Notes under the pieces: generated by a model
What the model was told of the DNA's origin: nothing
Databases searched by the model: none
The model's input: the letters and a program-made list of their open reading frames with translations, nothing else
Program-made: the position numbers and the translations under genes
Part shown: positions 6,457 through 26,567 of the stretch, piece by piece
Layout: every line of letters starts with the position of its first letter
Position numbering within the stretch: the stretch's first letter is position 1
NCBI GenBank assembly: GCA_007121385.1
Contig: SKLV01000011.1
Coordinates: forward strand, 1-41,667
DNA: 41,667 nucleotides
Direction of reading: 5' to 3'
From: Bdellovibrionales bacterium
GTDB lineage: Bacteria > Bdellovibrionota > Bdellovibrionia > Bdellovibrionales > UBA1609

Positions 6457-7074
6457 ATGAGCACCTCATTAAAGCCCATTCCCGATATTTATGACCTCAG
6501 TGATCAGTCTTCCAGTGCTGTGGACTATCAAGCCCTGGAGACAGAGAAAGCCCATGAAATTGAGCTTAAGATTCGCAGAGAACTCAGCCGACAGATAGGC
6601 CCCCATTTGGGGGAGCTTCGACAGGGAGTTCTACAGCTGGTGGCGGACAACCAGTATGATTCGGCTGTCGAAGAACTGAGTCTCTATGTGGAAGCCAAGA
6701 CCAGCTATCCTCTTTTTCAGAGTCGGGTGGAATCCTATGTCAGTCACTGCAACAACTTGATATTCGCCATTCAAGCTAAGAGGGACTTTCCCTCCTCTGT
6801 GGTGATGTCCTATGCCCGACAACAGGAGCTCAGTGAAAAAGTCCGAGAGCACTTTGAGGAGTTAAAGCAGTTCTTAAAAAAAATTGAGCGGGTGGAGAGA
6901 GAGGTCAAACTGGATGATATGAGATCCACGGTTTGGTTCCTCAAGACTTTTACTTATTGTGTATTCGCCCTTTTTGCTCTTGGTTTTATTTTAGATCTAT
7001 CTAGGGGAATGGCCCAATCCTTTTTTGTGGCCTTTGGAGCTTTGACCGAGGCCCTCGTCCAGCTGGTCCTGTAA
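6457..7074 (+). CDS. Tail-anchored helical membrane protein, function unknown
   Basis: Of 205 residues, the first 155 are hydrophilic, strongly helical and charged, with no signal peptide. A clear membrane segment lies at about 161-183. A second hydrophobic stretch runs to the C-terminus (about 186-205), so most of the protein should face the cytoplasm. The charged part contains heptad-like stretches around residues 110-150 that could form a coiled coil. No known family is recognised. It is convergent with the subtilase gene; its stop codon touches the left arm of the inverted-repeat element at 7074-7198. Confidence 0.7.
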   Translation: MSTSLKPIPDIYDLSDQSSSAVDYQALETEKAHEIELKIRRELSRQIGPHLGELRQGVLQLVADNQYDSAVEELSLYVEAKTSYPLFQSRVESYVSHCNNLIFAIQAKRDFPSSVVMSYARQQELSEKVREHFEELKQFLKKIERVEREVKLDDMRSTVWFLKTFTYCVFALFALGFILDLSRGMAQSFFVAFGALTEALVQLVL

Positions 7075-7198
7075 AAGGTGCCCGTCGTATTTTTGCGTAT
7101 CAAAGCGTCATTAAGTGTTCATCTTTTAAATGGCCTTGGGGAGCGTTCAAAATTTTGGCAATGATGCACTGATACGCAAAAATATGACGGGCACCTTT
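7074..7198. repeat. Long inverted-repeat element, copy 1
   Basis: Two 28-nt arms (7074-7101 and 7171-7198) are reverse complements at 27 of 28 positions. The single exception is a G-T pair (7087 with 7185). Beyond a 2-nt mismatch the pairing resumes for 8 bp (7105-7112 with 7160-7167). The loop is about 47-69 nt. The arm core, GTGCCCGTC then an A/T-rich stretch then GCGTATC, is shared with copy 2 at 9110-9232. It fills the gap between convergent genes and overlaps both stop codons. It carries no open frame. Confidence 0.9.
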
Positions 7199-8981
7199 AT
7201 GGGCAGGCTAGCGGACCCATGGTCACAAAGACATTGAATCTTTGGCTCTCTGTGGAGCGGCCAAAAGAGTCTGAAACCAGCAGTCGATACTCTCCAGAAT
7301 CAGCTTCACTCACTGAGCTGATGTTTAAGGTGTTGGAACGCGCTCCAGGAATGGCCTGGTCGTTACGATACCACTGGAAGTTGAAGGGGAACTGGGGATC
7401 GGCCATCACCACCTCTAGGCGAAGACCAGTTTCCGACTGCACCAAAAGATCTCCGGGCTGACTGGCAATTTGCAGGCCTAAGTTGGCACGGACAAATTCC
7501 GCTGTGCGGGCGAGGTTCAAGCGGTTGCCCTCGGAGGCAGTGGTTAGGAACTGAGGGTCCTTAATGGCTGAATCTTTAAGAATGGACTCCACCATAGCGG
7601 GAGTGACCACTTGTCCTTTGGAGCGCAGATAGCCAATCACCAAAGCCCCAGCTCCGGCGGCAATGGGGGCGGCCATAGAGGTGCCCTGAATGGGATTGTT
7701 GGAAATGCGATTGGCATAGCCGCTGGGAGACAGTCGGGTGGGGACGGTGGAGAGAACGCCTGTGTTGCCATTGGAGCCAGGGGCCATCAGCTGCACCTGT
7801 GTAGAGCTAAAGTTGGAGAAGAAGGAGCGCCTTGAGGTGGCGACATCCACTGAGCCCACGGTAATGACTCCATCAATATCACTGTAGGAGGCAGGATAAA
7901 CCGGGAAGTTGTCTAAAGAGCGACCATCATTTCCGGAGGCAGTAAAGACAGTAATGCCCGCATTGACGGCTTCTTGCAGGGCCTGTTGCAGATCCCGGCT
8001 GGGCAGAGCTGTTCCCAAGCTTAAATTGATGACATGAGCTCCCTGAGCTATGGCATAGCGGATGGCGTTAATCACGGGGCTAAGGCCTCCCTCCCCATTT
8101 TCATCCAGAACCTTTAGGGCCATGATTTTGATTTGGCTGGTGCCCACTCCAGAAATTCCAATGCCATTGTTGCTGGCGGCCGCCGCCAGGCCGGCCACAT
8201 GGGTGCCATGAAAGCCACTGTCCATAGGGTCATTGTTGTTGTTTAAGAAGTTGTAGCCCCGTCCGCTCCACATTTTAGGAGCCAAGTCGGGATGGTTGTA
8301 GTCCACCCCGGTGTCAATGATAGCGACAATCACCTCCCGGGTGATCTCCTGATCATTAAAGCCGACCTCTCGAGAGCGGGCCAAGTCGATGCTGGCCATC
8401 TCGGGCTGGCTTGAGAACAGAGGGTCATTGGGTGTAAATAGCAGTTGGACCTCGGCATCTGAACTTAGGCTGAGGAGGCAGGGGTCAGCTTCAGCCTGAG
8501 TAATAAGCTCTTCCAGTGGAGTTTCCGCTTCAACTTTTAAGGGGAAAGACTGGGTGCTGAGTTCTGAAATTTGAGGGTGGCTCTGCATCATTTGGATGGA
8601 TAAAAGATCCCTGAGGATTTCGGAGTCTCGGGGGTTAGCAGAGAGAGCCTCGACACAGTCCAAGTCCACCGTTACGACCAAATCGGAGCCTGGAGAAATT
8701 TGCAGTTGATCAGTAGGAGAAAGTTGGACTTCCATGGCCGAACTCAGCTTGACGCGACCCCCTGGGCTCCCTTGTCGCTCCAAGTGATGGCTGAGCAGGG
8801 AGACTTTGCCCTGAGTGTAGAGTTGGTCGTCTCCTTGAGTCTTCGCAGAGGGAGAGCAGGAGGAAAGGTCGAGAACGCCAGAGTTAGAAAAGTCGTTTTT
8901 CAGTTGGAAGCCGGGACCGCAGCCTGAGGCAAGAGCGGAAGTCAGAGAAAAAAGTAAAGCGAAAAACAATTTCTTGAACAA
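7197..8981 (-). CDS. Subtilisin-like serine protease lipoprotein with a C-terminal Ig-like domain
   Basis: This is a secreted peptidase S8. The catalytic triad is complete: Asp223 in I-I-D-T-G-V-D, His258 in G-F-H-G-T-H-V-A-G, and Ser435 in G-T-S-M-A-A-P. The start is TTG at 8981, chosen because GAGGGGG precedes it at good spacing. The signal ends at a lipobox (L-A-S-G-C, Cys21), so the mature protein should be lipid-anchored. Residues 22-210 form a long N-terminal region that may act as a propeptide. Residues 500-590 look like an immunoglobulin-type domain (F-Q-W-Y-R then D-S-G-E-Y), unusual in a bacterial protease. An inverted-repeat element lies on each side of the gene. Confidence 0.93.
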   Translation of the reverse strand: MFKKLFFALLFSLTSALASGCGPGFQLKNDFSNSGVLDLSSCSPSAKTQGDDQLYTQGKVSLLSHHLERQGSPGGRVKLSSAMEVQLSPTDQLQISPGSDLVVTVDLDCVEALSANPRDSEILRDLLSIQMMQSHPQISELSTQSFPLKVEAETPLEELITQAEADPCLLSLSSDAEVQLLFTPNDPLFSSQPEMASIDLARSREVGFNDQEITREVIVAIIDTGVDYNHPDLAPKMWSGRGYNFLNNNNDPMDSGFHGTHVAGLAAAASNNGIGISGVGTSQIKIMALKVLDENGEGGLSPVINAIRYAIAQGAHVINLSLGTALPSRDLQQALQEAVNAGITVFTASGNDGRSLDNFPVYPASYSDIDGVITVGSVDVATSRRSFFSNFSSTQVQLMAPGSNGNTGVLSTVPTRLSPSGYANRISNNPIQGTSMAAPIAAGAGALVIGYLRSKGQVVTPAMVESILKDSAIKDPQFLTTASEGNRLNLARTAEFVRANLGLQIASQPGDLLVQSETGLRLEVVMADPQFPFNFQWYRNDQAIPGARSNTLNISSVSEADSGEYRLLVSDSFGRSTESQRFNVFVTMGPLACP

Positions 8982-9025
8982 AAAATCCCCCTCTATTGTT
9001 CCTGAAGCTGTTCAGCTTTTATGCA

Positions 9026-9049
9026 AGTGTCTGAGTCTTGACAGACACT
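9026..9049. promoter_or_regulatory. 8-bp inverted repeat upstream of the subtilase gene
   Basis: AGTGTCTG (9026-9033) and CAGACACT (9042-9049) are perfect reverse complements with an 8-nt spacer. They lie 45-68 nt upstream of the subtilase start (minus strand, 8981). The position suits an operator or a leader hairpin. No other copy was noticed in the window. Confidence 0.3.
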
Positions 9050-9109
9050 CCTTATTAGCTGCGCGAGAAATCAACTTTCAGGAGACAGGCTTATGGGGAT
9101 GCAAGGGGA

Positions 9110-9232
9110 GTGCCCGTCATCTTTTTGCGTATCAGTGTGTCAAATTAGGACAGAGGCCCAAGGGAGAGGTCTCGTCGCCTCAAGGCCCACCACAAAAATT
9201 GGCGCGCTGATACGCAAAAAGATGACGGGCAC
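9110..9232. repeat. Long inverted-repeat element, copy 2
   Basis: The 26-nt arms (9110-9135 and 9207-9232) are perfect reverse complements. Pairing continues for 8 more bp (9136-9143 with 9199-9206) using three G-T pairs. The arm core matches copy 1 apart from two or three positions. Both loops also hold a GGCC followed a few bases later by GGGAG. It lies between the stop of the VKOR-DsbA gene, with which the right arm is flush, and the upstream region of the subtilase gene. No open frame lies in it. Confidence 0.9.
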
Positions 9233-10420
9233 CTAGCGGAGGTGGCGGCGCAGTCCCTGAAGGACAGCCAGGTTTTGGGCGGAGCCTGGGGCCAGGCGAC
9301 CATTGACAAAAATAGCTGGGGTGCCTCTGACTCGAGCTCGTTGTCCGGCGGAGGCTTGAGCCATAATGCTCTCGAGGGTCTCAGGATCCTCTATGCACTC
9401 AAACAGTTGGGGCCAATTGAGGCCAATATCCTCACTGATTCTTTCCAAGACCTCATCAGCCGCACTTATGGCGCGAGCGGAGGAGATCCGTTCAAAGCGA
9501 TCAAAGAGGGTGTCATGCATCTCCCAGCCCTTTTGGCCGATCTGCTCACTGCAGACTGTGGCCTTGGCGTAGCGGCAGGAGACCCCATCCCCTTCGGGGA
9601 GTCCTGGATTGCAGGTTCCATCGAGCGGAAAGGCATAAAAGTCGACCCTGACATCACGGTGCACCTGAGTCAGAGTCTTGAGAACAGGGGCCACCCGTTG
9701 ACAGTGAATGCAGCGAAAATCGGCAAATTCGGCCACCACCATGGCTGCATCTTGGGGGCCTTTGCTCAGGCTGGGTTCAGCCGCAAAACTCACCAGAGGG
9801 GATTGACTCCAGTCAAAGATAGCTTGCTGCAGGACTTTCTCTAAATGCTGAGCGTCGTACTGGCGAGTGAAGTTCACATGGATAAGTAAACTGAGCAGGG
9901 GCACAGCAGCCAGAGACCCAAGGCTTACGGGAGACTCCGCCCAAAGTCGTAGAGGGTTTTGGAAAAAGGTTGAAAAGAAGGGCTCGGTCTGCGCTCTCCG
10001 GAGAAGCTCAAAGTTCACCAGAGAAAGTCCATAAAGCACTATACAAAGAGGACAGTAGGCGGAGAGAAAAAAGGTGGAGATTGCTCCCATGACCACAGAA
10101 GCTCCTAGGGCCACTGTGCCCAACAAAAAGGCAAAAGACAAAAGGCGCCCTGGATGATCTGTAAAGCGCAGAAGAGCCCCTAATAGAAAGAGGGCCAAAA
10201 CGATATGGGTCACTGCTCCCCAAAGGGATACGGGAATGCCAAAGAGGTTGCCATAGGGGCTGGCCGCCGCCACATCGCAGTTGAATTGGGAGCCCAGATT
10301 GCAGATGGCGGACTCGACCGGGGCACCAAAGTGTAGGGGGTACCAATGTAGAGTTAAGTGGAAATGAACGCCAATAGAAGCCAAAGTGACTAAAAGAGCG
10401 AAAACAATTTTTTTATCCAT
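9233..10420 (-). CDS. VKOR-DsbA fusion, periplasmic disulfide-forming enzyme
   Basis: The N-terminal half (about 1-160) is a vitamin K epoxide reductase-type membrane domain with several membrane helices. It has a loop cysteine pair (C-N-L-G-S-Q-F-N-C-D) and the active-site C-P-L-C in S-A-Y-C-P-L-C. After another membrane segment (about 170-185) comes a DsbA-like thioredoxin domain (about 230-395), with active site C-I-H-C and a cis-proline loop R-G-T-P-A-I-F-V-N-G. One polypeptide thus oxidises substrate thiols and passes electrons to quinone, replacing separate DsbA and DsbB. Additional cysteine pairs in the DsbA part may be structural. The stop codon abuts the inverted-repeat element downstream. 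Confidence 0.93.
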   Translation of the reverse strand: MDKKIVFALLVTLASIGVHFHLTLHWYPLHFGAPVESAICNLGSQFNCDVAAASPYGNLFGIPVSLWGAVTHIVLALFLLGALLRFTDHPGRLLSFAFLLGTVALGASVVMGAISTFFLSAYCPLCIVLYGLSLVNFELLRRAQTEPFFSTFFQNPLRLWAESPVSLGSLAAVPLLSLLIHVNFTRQYDAQHLEKVLQQAIFDWSQSPLVSFAAEPSLSKGPQDAAMVVAEFADFRCIHCQRVAPVLKTLTQVHRDVRVDFYAFPLDGTCNPGLPEGDGVSCRYAKATVCSEQIGQKGWEMHDTLFDRFERISSARAISAADEVLERISEDIGLNWPQLFECIEDPETLESIMAQASAGQRARVRGTPAIFVNGRLAPGSAQNLAVLQGLRRHLR

Positions 10421-25547: not shown

Positions 25548-26567
25548 ATGGCAAAAAAGAAAAAAGTGGTCAAAAAAGCGGCAAAAAAATCCACTGCAAA
25601 AAAAGTGGCAAAAAAGTCCAGCCCTAAAAAGCTAACAAAGAAAGCCTCATCCAAGCCGGCGAAAAAGAGCTCGGCCAAGGCTAAGACAGTGGCTAAGGGC
25701 AAGAAGAAAGCTCAGGCCAAGGTGGGGGCGAAAAAAACTGTGGCCTCAGCCAAGTCAGCGAAAAAATCCACCTCGGCAAAAGCAAAAGCAAAAGCAAAAG
25801 CCAAGGTTCCAGAGCTTAAAAAGCCAGCTAAGGCCTCAAAAGGCACTGCAGCAAAGAAAACAGAGGGCTTAGCAGGACTGGCCAAAAAAATTGTTGCCCA
25901 AGCCAAAGACAAGCTGATGGCCTCCACCAAGAAGGAGGCCGAGGGCAAGAAGGCATCCAAAGCAACAAAAGACAAAAAAACGAGATCTGCTCAGGCGAGA
26001 GAGTTAGAAAGGGCTAAGGTTACAGAGGCCGCCAAGCCTGTCAAGTCCTCCAAAAAGCCGATAGCCGATGAGGAGGATTTTGATGCTGGCGATGACTTTT
26101 TTGATATGGATTATGAGTCCGAGGAGGCCGAAGGATCTGTAGATCAAGAGGGCCCTCGGGAGCGTCGTCTCTCTGATGGAGATGAACAGGAAGAAGAGGT
26201 GATCCTCACCGATGCTGAGGGTCGAAGATACTGTCGCGTTCGGGACTGTGACCAGGTGGCTGTGGTGGAAGGCTATTGCCGCTATCACTATCTTATGTTT
26301 TGGAAGCGTATCCAAGTCCGTAAGAAAATTCTGACTGAGGGAAAGCTGGCGCGCTACATTGAAGACCTAACGGCGCGCTACCCTGACAAGTATTTGGAAA
26401 TGCTAAAAAAAGATCTGCGCAACGAAAAAGATTTTTTGGCGGCTATTCAAGAGTTGGAGATTGATGAGTCTTCGGAGGACTCTGACTACGAAGATGAAGC
26501 TCAGAACTACATTGAAGAAGTTCGGGGTATGTCCGAGTCCTCTAGTCGAGAGGATGAGGACTACTGA
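25548..26567 (+). CDS. Histone-H1-like Lys/Ala-rich protein with acidic middle and zinc-type C-terminal motif
   Basis: The start is ATG at 25548, two codons inside the longest frame. Residues 1-165 are almost only Lys, Ala, Ser and Thr with K-K-A-A-K-K and A-K-A-K repeats, like eukaryotic H1 tails and bacterial AlgP/Hc1-type proteins. This part should bind DNA or RNA non-specifically. Residues about 170-220 are very acidic (D-E-E-D-F-D-A-G-D-D). Residues about 225-310 form a compact domain with C-x4-C-x9-C-x2-H (Y-C-R-V-R-D-C to G-Y-C-R-Y-H-Y), a likely zinc site, then helices. The tail is acidic again. The stop overlaps the convergent TPR gene by 7 nt. No close functional relative is recognised. 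Confidence 0.8.
   Translation: MAKKKKVVKKAAKKSTAKKVAKKSSPKKLTKKASSKPAKKSSAKAKTVAKGKKKAQAKVGAKKTVASAKSAKKSTSAKAKAKAKAKVPELKKPAKASKGTAAKKTEGLAGLAKKIVAQAKDKLMASTKKEAEGKKASKATKDKKTRSAQARELERAKVTEAAKPVKSSKKPIADEEDFDAGDDFFDMDYESEEAEGSVDQEGPRERRLSDGDEQEEEVILTDAEGRRYCRVRDCDQVAVVEGYCRYHYLMFWKRIQVRKKILTEGKLARYIEDLTARYPDKYLEMLKKDLRNEKDFLAAIQELEIDESSEDSDYEDEAQNYIEEVRGMSESSSREDEDY
25776..25799 (+). repeat. In-frame hexanucleotide tandem repeat (GCAAAA)4
   Basis: Four perfect copies of GCAAAA encode Ala-Lys repeats inside the H1-like gene. Gain or loss of a unit would keep the reading frame and change tail length by two residues. Confidence 0.85.

Follow-up and report, generated by a model that had tools for sequence, protein, structure and literature searches.

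Paired inverted repeats at gene ends in a Bdellovibrionales genome, very probably non-autonomous elements of a RAYT transposase carried between the same arms

The window analysed here, by which we mean the whole stretch of 41,667 nt from the Bdellovibrionales contig SKLV01000011.1, contains two inverted repeats of ~120 nt each (7078-7194 and 9110-9232), the first lying beside a subtilase gene and the second beside a VKOR/DsbA-like gene, whose protein falls a few codons short of its ortholog in a congener (G001). The features are listed in Table 1. In copy 1, inverted arms of 39 nt (7074-7112/7160-7198) are 90% complementary and spaced by 47 nt, and in copy 2, inverted arms of 37 nt (9110-9146/9196-9232) are 89% complementary and spaced by 49 nt. 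DNA folding of both copies on both strands gave z-scores from -7.7 to -10.2 relative to shuffled sequences, with none of 200 shuffles folding as well. Arm complementarity and folding against shuffles thus confirm the inverted repeats that a sequence-only reading of this window had placed at 7074-7198 and 9110-9232. Within the window, the arm pattern matches at these four arms and nowhere else, against an expectation of 0 matches (100 shuffles). However, the 'GGCC ... GGGAG' that the same reading saw as common to the two loops does not reflect any detectable homology, as blastn of the two interiors returned no match.

Table 1. Features at and around the two repeat copies in the window
Feature	Position	Strand
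Copy 1 left edge: TAA stop of upstream gene (6457-7074), then AAG	7072..7077	+
Copy 1 left arm, 34 nt, GTGCCCGTCGTATTTTTGCGTATCAAAGCGTCAT	7078..7111	+
Copy 1 interior/loop, unconserved, non-coding	7112..7160	.
Copy 1 right arm, inverted	7161..7194	-
TAAAG: TAA stop of convergent subtilase gene (7197-8981, -) meets copy 1 right edge	7195..7199	-
Copy 2 left arm	9110..9143	+
Copy 2 interior/loop, unconserved, non-coding	9144..9198	.
Copy 2 right arm, inverted	9199..9232	-
TAG stop of VKOR/DsbA-like gene (9233-10420, -), directly abutting copy 2	9233..9235	-

Copies in the host genome (2.40 Mb in 178 contigs) were found by pattern search and in fetched stretches. The arm, with the consensus GTGCCCGTCATCTTTTTGCGTATCAGCGCGTCA preceded by WAG, occurs 38 times genome-wide: the pattern with at most three mismatches gave 37 matches (18 + 19) and its reversed control none, and the 38th arm, at L063:1206, carries an indel. 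These arms form 16 inverted pairs and six single arms at 22 places, so the supposed two-copy family is considerably larger, and its arms were not found to be the end of a known insertion sequence. Pair lengths range from 65 to 299 nt, plus one pair of 864 nt; the longest non-coding pair (L067:8-306, 299 nt) has a strong internal hairpin, AATGGGAGTTC...GAACTCCCATT, inside it. As would be expected of repeats in a draft assembly, several copies come to within a few hundred bases of the end of their contig (contigs C2, C47, C90, C108 and C156), so the true copy number may be higher. Neighbouring copies are clustered: five gaps between the 22 loci are below 2.5 kb (p 5e-5 for loci placed at random). 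As to the interiors, two small groups are related, one consisting of C47a, C47b, C146a and C146b and the other of the three C156 copies, and blastn detected no significant mutual relation among the remaining interiors, including those of both window copies.

Alignment of the 38 arms shows that, counted from the outside inward, base 1 to about base 33 are near-invariant and the sequence is random beyond, which puts the conserved arm at about 34 nt instead of the 25-28 nt first proposed. The outer boundary is sharp, as only the WAG is common on that side, with G at -1 in 32/38, A at -2 in 32/38, and T or A at -3 in 35/38. A GTAG/GTGG tetranucleotide at the hairpin foot is absent from the arm and flank columns of this alignment, and the GGGGWSAS motif is absent from the arm consensus. 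As a single strand, the arm can fold two small hairpins, AGGTG-CCCGT-CATCT and TGCG-TATCAG-CGCR, and these were no more stable than shuffles in the two isolated arms that we folded. Pairing in the second hairpin is kept through G-T wobbles in 129/136 cells on the arm strand, compared with 98/136 on the opposite strand; this excess is only a hint. No pair in the arm hairpins is altered on both sides, and because all variation is one-sided, there is no true covariation.

Five Y1-transposase genes are present in the host genome, and one of them (C2:648-1331) sits between arms of the family, at odds with the earlier remarks that no transposase is involved and that the arms match no repeat class. 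Neither remark holds once the whole genome is considered. The arms enclosing this gene (pair at C2:464-1327) are 38 nt long with one position different, and its reading frame is intact and continues through its right arm. The C2 protein scores over the cut-off of the Pfam model Y1_Tnp (PF01797), matches NCBIfam REP_Tyr_transpos with an E-value of 6e-21 and 74.9 bits, just under the curated cut-off of 80, and matches the E. coli TnpAREP structure (PDB 4ER8) with an E-value of 5e-8. It contains the motifs NHFH and Y-x3-NP (YIYRNP). A C-terminal HTH/DnaA-like domain is a trait of TnpAY1 subclass 2.1 (PMC6006769); Pfam gives only Y1_Tnp for the C2 protein, these profiles being general and not subclass-specific. 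A search of plasmids with the C2 RAYT gave distant homologues only (26-31% identity). A second RAYT of the host (L141, G000:C114:19030-19629) has the imperfect ends GTGCCAGGCCGTGATTGG and GTGCCAGGCCCTGTTTGG. As the congener also has a RAYT (L103) with GGTGCCAGGCCGTGTTTGG ends, the C114 RAYT appears to be old and common to the genus.

The host arm pattern is absent, except for stray matches with two mismatches, from 58 relatives, the congener included. A scan of GTDB r220, a collection that may lack the host's own species, returned a single arm match on a Caulobacterales contig, which we rejected as a chance match, there being no second arm nearby and the flanks being unrelated. Of the 59 genomes searched, on the other hand, the host's own included, 38 contain RAYTs, and a scan of 15 order-level RAYTs against the RAYT model gave 15 matches. 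Most of the RAYT loci fetched are flanked by inverted arms that share one layout, (A)AAGGTRCC-n-CTTTT and then a G+C-rich stretch, and RAYT divergence correlates with arm divergence (Mantel r 0.42, p 0.0002, n 14). Cognate arm copies number 39 in G040, 43 in G037 and 18 in G052, the three genomes counted, and in the first two they often form compact inverted pairs. At L204:1501-1560 in G037 are compact ~60-nt inverted pairs (AAAGGTGCCTACCACCTTTTGTGGATGC...) that resemble bidirectional terminators, each arm being itself palindromic. As RAYTs with cognate inverted arms recur across the relatives, the window copies represent a single branch within a broader class of RAYT-plus-ends systems.

The congener also provides a view of the sites themselves. 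Its flanking genes are present at about 20 of the insertion points and the element at none; likewise, orthologs exist for 22 arm-facing gene ends, and in none of the 22 does the element accompany them. Since the corresponding sites are free of the element, the copies look like lineage-specific insertions, a comparison drawn with one congener in which spacer lengths differ and some gene ends differ by a few codons. Loss from the congener instead of insertion in the host is excluded by parsimony alone. Taken together, the common arms, the C2 RAYT, the empty congener sites and the RAYT/arm systems of the relatives indicate that each copy is very probably a mobile element of the non-autonomous type, in which two inverted 34-nt ends enclose an arbitrary stuffer, the ends being the putative recognition sequences of the C2 Y1 (HuH, single-tyrosine) RAYT. 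Therefore, the suggestion of a MITE-like element was close to right, in the sense of a non-autonomous repeat pair with a transposase between the same arms on C2. Counting against this reading are the NCBIfam score below the cut-off, the one-sided hairpin variation, and the single arms, which we take to be decayed or split pairs.

We infer that the copies are mobile and are transposed by the C2 RAYT. The enzyme would bind the single-stranded arms as small hairpins, cut at the arm edge and re-insert the pair, often nearby; such single-stranded end recognition and edge cutting would be expected from work on RAYTs and IS200/IS605 elements (PMC8266576). Insertion would take place next to a dinucleotide ending in A, either TA or AA, and in many cases at a stop codon or within one. 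Where the TA belongs to a stop codon, or is otherwise in frame, the first G of the element would then complete it to TAG, and the gene would still terminate. As the element begins with G, so that insertion after TA yields TAG, tight convergent 3' junctions would be harmless landing sites.

By gene calls that are simple open reading frames, 13/24 arm-facing gene ends stop in a TAG that directly adjoins the arm edge, and a further 7/24 stop within 1-5 nt. Stop-codon sites are expected to make up 9% of the TA/AA sites between the stop and the next gene, and the observed 13/24 corresponds to a p of about 3e-8 assuming independent arms, an assumption that fails for arms belonging to the same pair. 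Of the 13 gene ends with TAG at the edge, 12 were compared with the congener; six end at the same codon, where the congener's stop is TAA, TGA or TAG, and six are a few codons longer in the congener, so the element seems to supply the stop in some cases. For GTAG REPs, it is already reported that their termini often give a TAG stop to flanking genes (PMC3733652). Exact abutment of stops is not general in G040, G037 and G052. At L075:4068-4089, a single arm lies within the 3' end of an ORF and is read through, and the C-terminus is altered relative to the congener's ortholog. Convergent genes are tightly packed in this genome: at window positions 26561-26567, at L071:2514-2517 and at L073:1355-1358, the stops of two converging frames share 4-7 nt. 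Such packing leaves fewer harmless insertion sites. The stop-codon position may reflect target preference or the survival of harmless insertions, and the sequence data fit both. That the RAYT actually prefers to insert at stop codons (the TA of TAA/TAG) of packed, often convergent genes, with the leading G regenerating TAG on both sides as a safe-site strategy, instead of harmless insertions merely surviving, is a tentative idea that we consider rather unlikely.

The same positions could be taken as the mark of bidirectional transcription terminators, or of mRNA 3'-end hairpins, that selection keeps at convergent gene ends, an account compatible with a mobile origin. Most arm-facing gene ends do stop 0-5 nt away, on both sides in several convergent pairs, and each pair forms a very stable hairpin. 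However, a terminator scan gave one weak site, fewer than in shuffles, the same gene ends exist in the congener without copies, and the genome's other convergent pairs lack such an element. Moreover, the copies are confined to one species among those searched, and their ends are shared with a transposase element. We therefore regard selected terminators as distinctly improbable; of the 'bidirectional end signal' offered by the sequence-only reading, the position at gene ends, often between convergent genes, holds, but the arms are not standard intrinsic terminators. A host function is not needed to account for the pattern; a long hairpin behind the stop could, as a side effect, influence mRNA ends.

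Structured RNAs, a family of which was also raised at the outset, or a riboregulator would explain long stable hairpins between genes, but either is very unlikely, because no Rfam family scores over threshold, most loops are unrelated, the arm hairpin shows one-sided variation and no compensatory changes, and a transposase lies between the same arms. The sole low-E Rfam match, a plant miRNA model, was discarded as a generic long hairpin (49 bits vs a gathering score of 81). Finally, an IS630-type MITE with TA duplication, bearing the ends of an ordinary DDE insertion sequence, would suit the small size, the inverted repeats at the termini and the TA often present on either edge, but this is hardly credible, since the only transposase found between the arms is Y1/HuH, related Y1 genes lie between like arms, and the edge is TA or AA, not always TA.

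Among published elements, those closest to the RAYT-associated pairs described here are TIRYT/TIR and REPIN. TIRYTs are RAYT-like enzymes with other terminal inverted repeats, and their TIRs are moderately multiplied, as described in the text of Di Nocera et al. 2013 (PMC3733652). As in the TIRYT/TIRtron arrangement given there, a RAYT-like Y1 transposase lies here between long terminal inverted repeats that are not GTAG REPs, and the moderately repeated ends occur as singles and dimers (here six singles and 16 pairs). However, GGGGWSAS, found in some but not all of the TIRs described in that text, is missing here, and the arm architecture is AAAGGTRCC-n-CTTTT. The host lineage is not among the TIRYT lineages named in the passages of PMC3733652 compared here. 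In the REP literature, RAYTs are flanked by GTAG REPs, and REPIN doublets are the replicating unit (Bertels and Rainey 2011, PMC3116915; Nunvar et al. 2010, PMC2817692). Our family resembles REPINs/REP-BIMEs in that most copies are inverted doublets and only a few are singles, the genome has one cognate RAYT with the same repeat on either side, the doublet forms a hairpin, positions are at gene ends and intergenic, and arm and RAYT diverge together. It differs in that it has no GTAG/GTGG head at the foot of the long hairpin, the arms pair mainly with each other, the stuffer is variable, and there are 38 arms as opposed to hundreds. In addition, a single canonical GTAG REP is a stable palindrome, whereas the two isolated arms folded here do no better than shuffles. 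The C2 RAYT is a distant relative of the IS200/IS605 transposases (IS608, ISDra2), with which Y1/HuH chemistry is expected to be shared, but its protein is a much closer fit to the RAYT model than to the IS200 one, and IS200/IS605 elements lack terminal inverted repeats (PMC2817692), whereas the ends here are near-perfect inverted repeats. As both the GTAG head and GGGGWSAS are absent, we place the family under the broad RAYT/TIR kind and not with the canonical REPs.

A literature search for RAYT and Bdellovibrio found no paper, and the family adds an apparently undescribed RAYT/TIR lineage that is present across one order. In this order each RAYT comes with inverted ends of its own, built on a common architecture, and in the genomes checked also with its own multiplied miniature copies, and the stop-codon position of the copies offers a concrete, testable case of how repeats may spread in a compact genome while leaving its genes unbroken.
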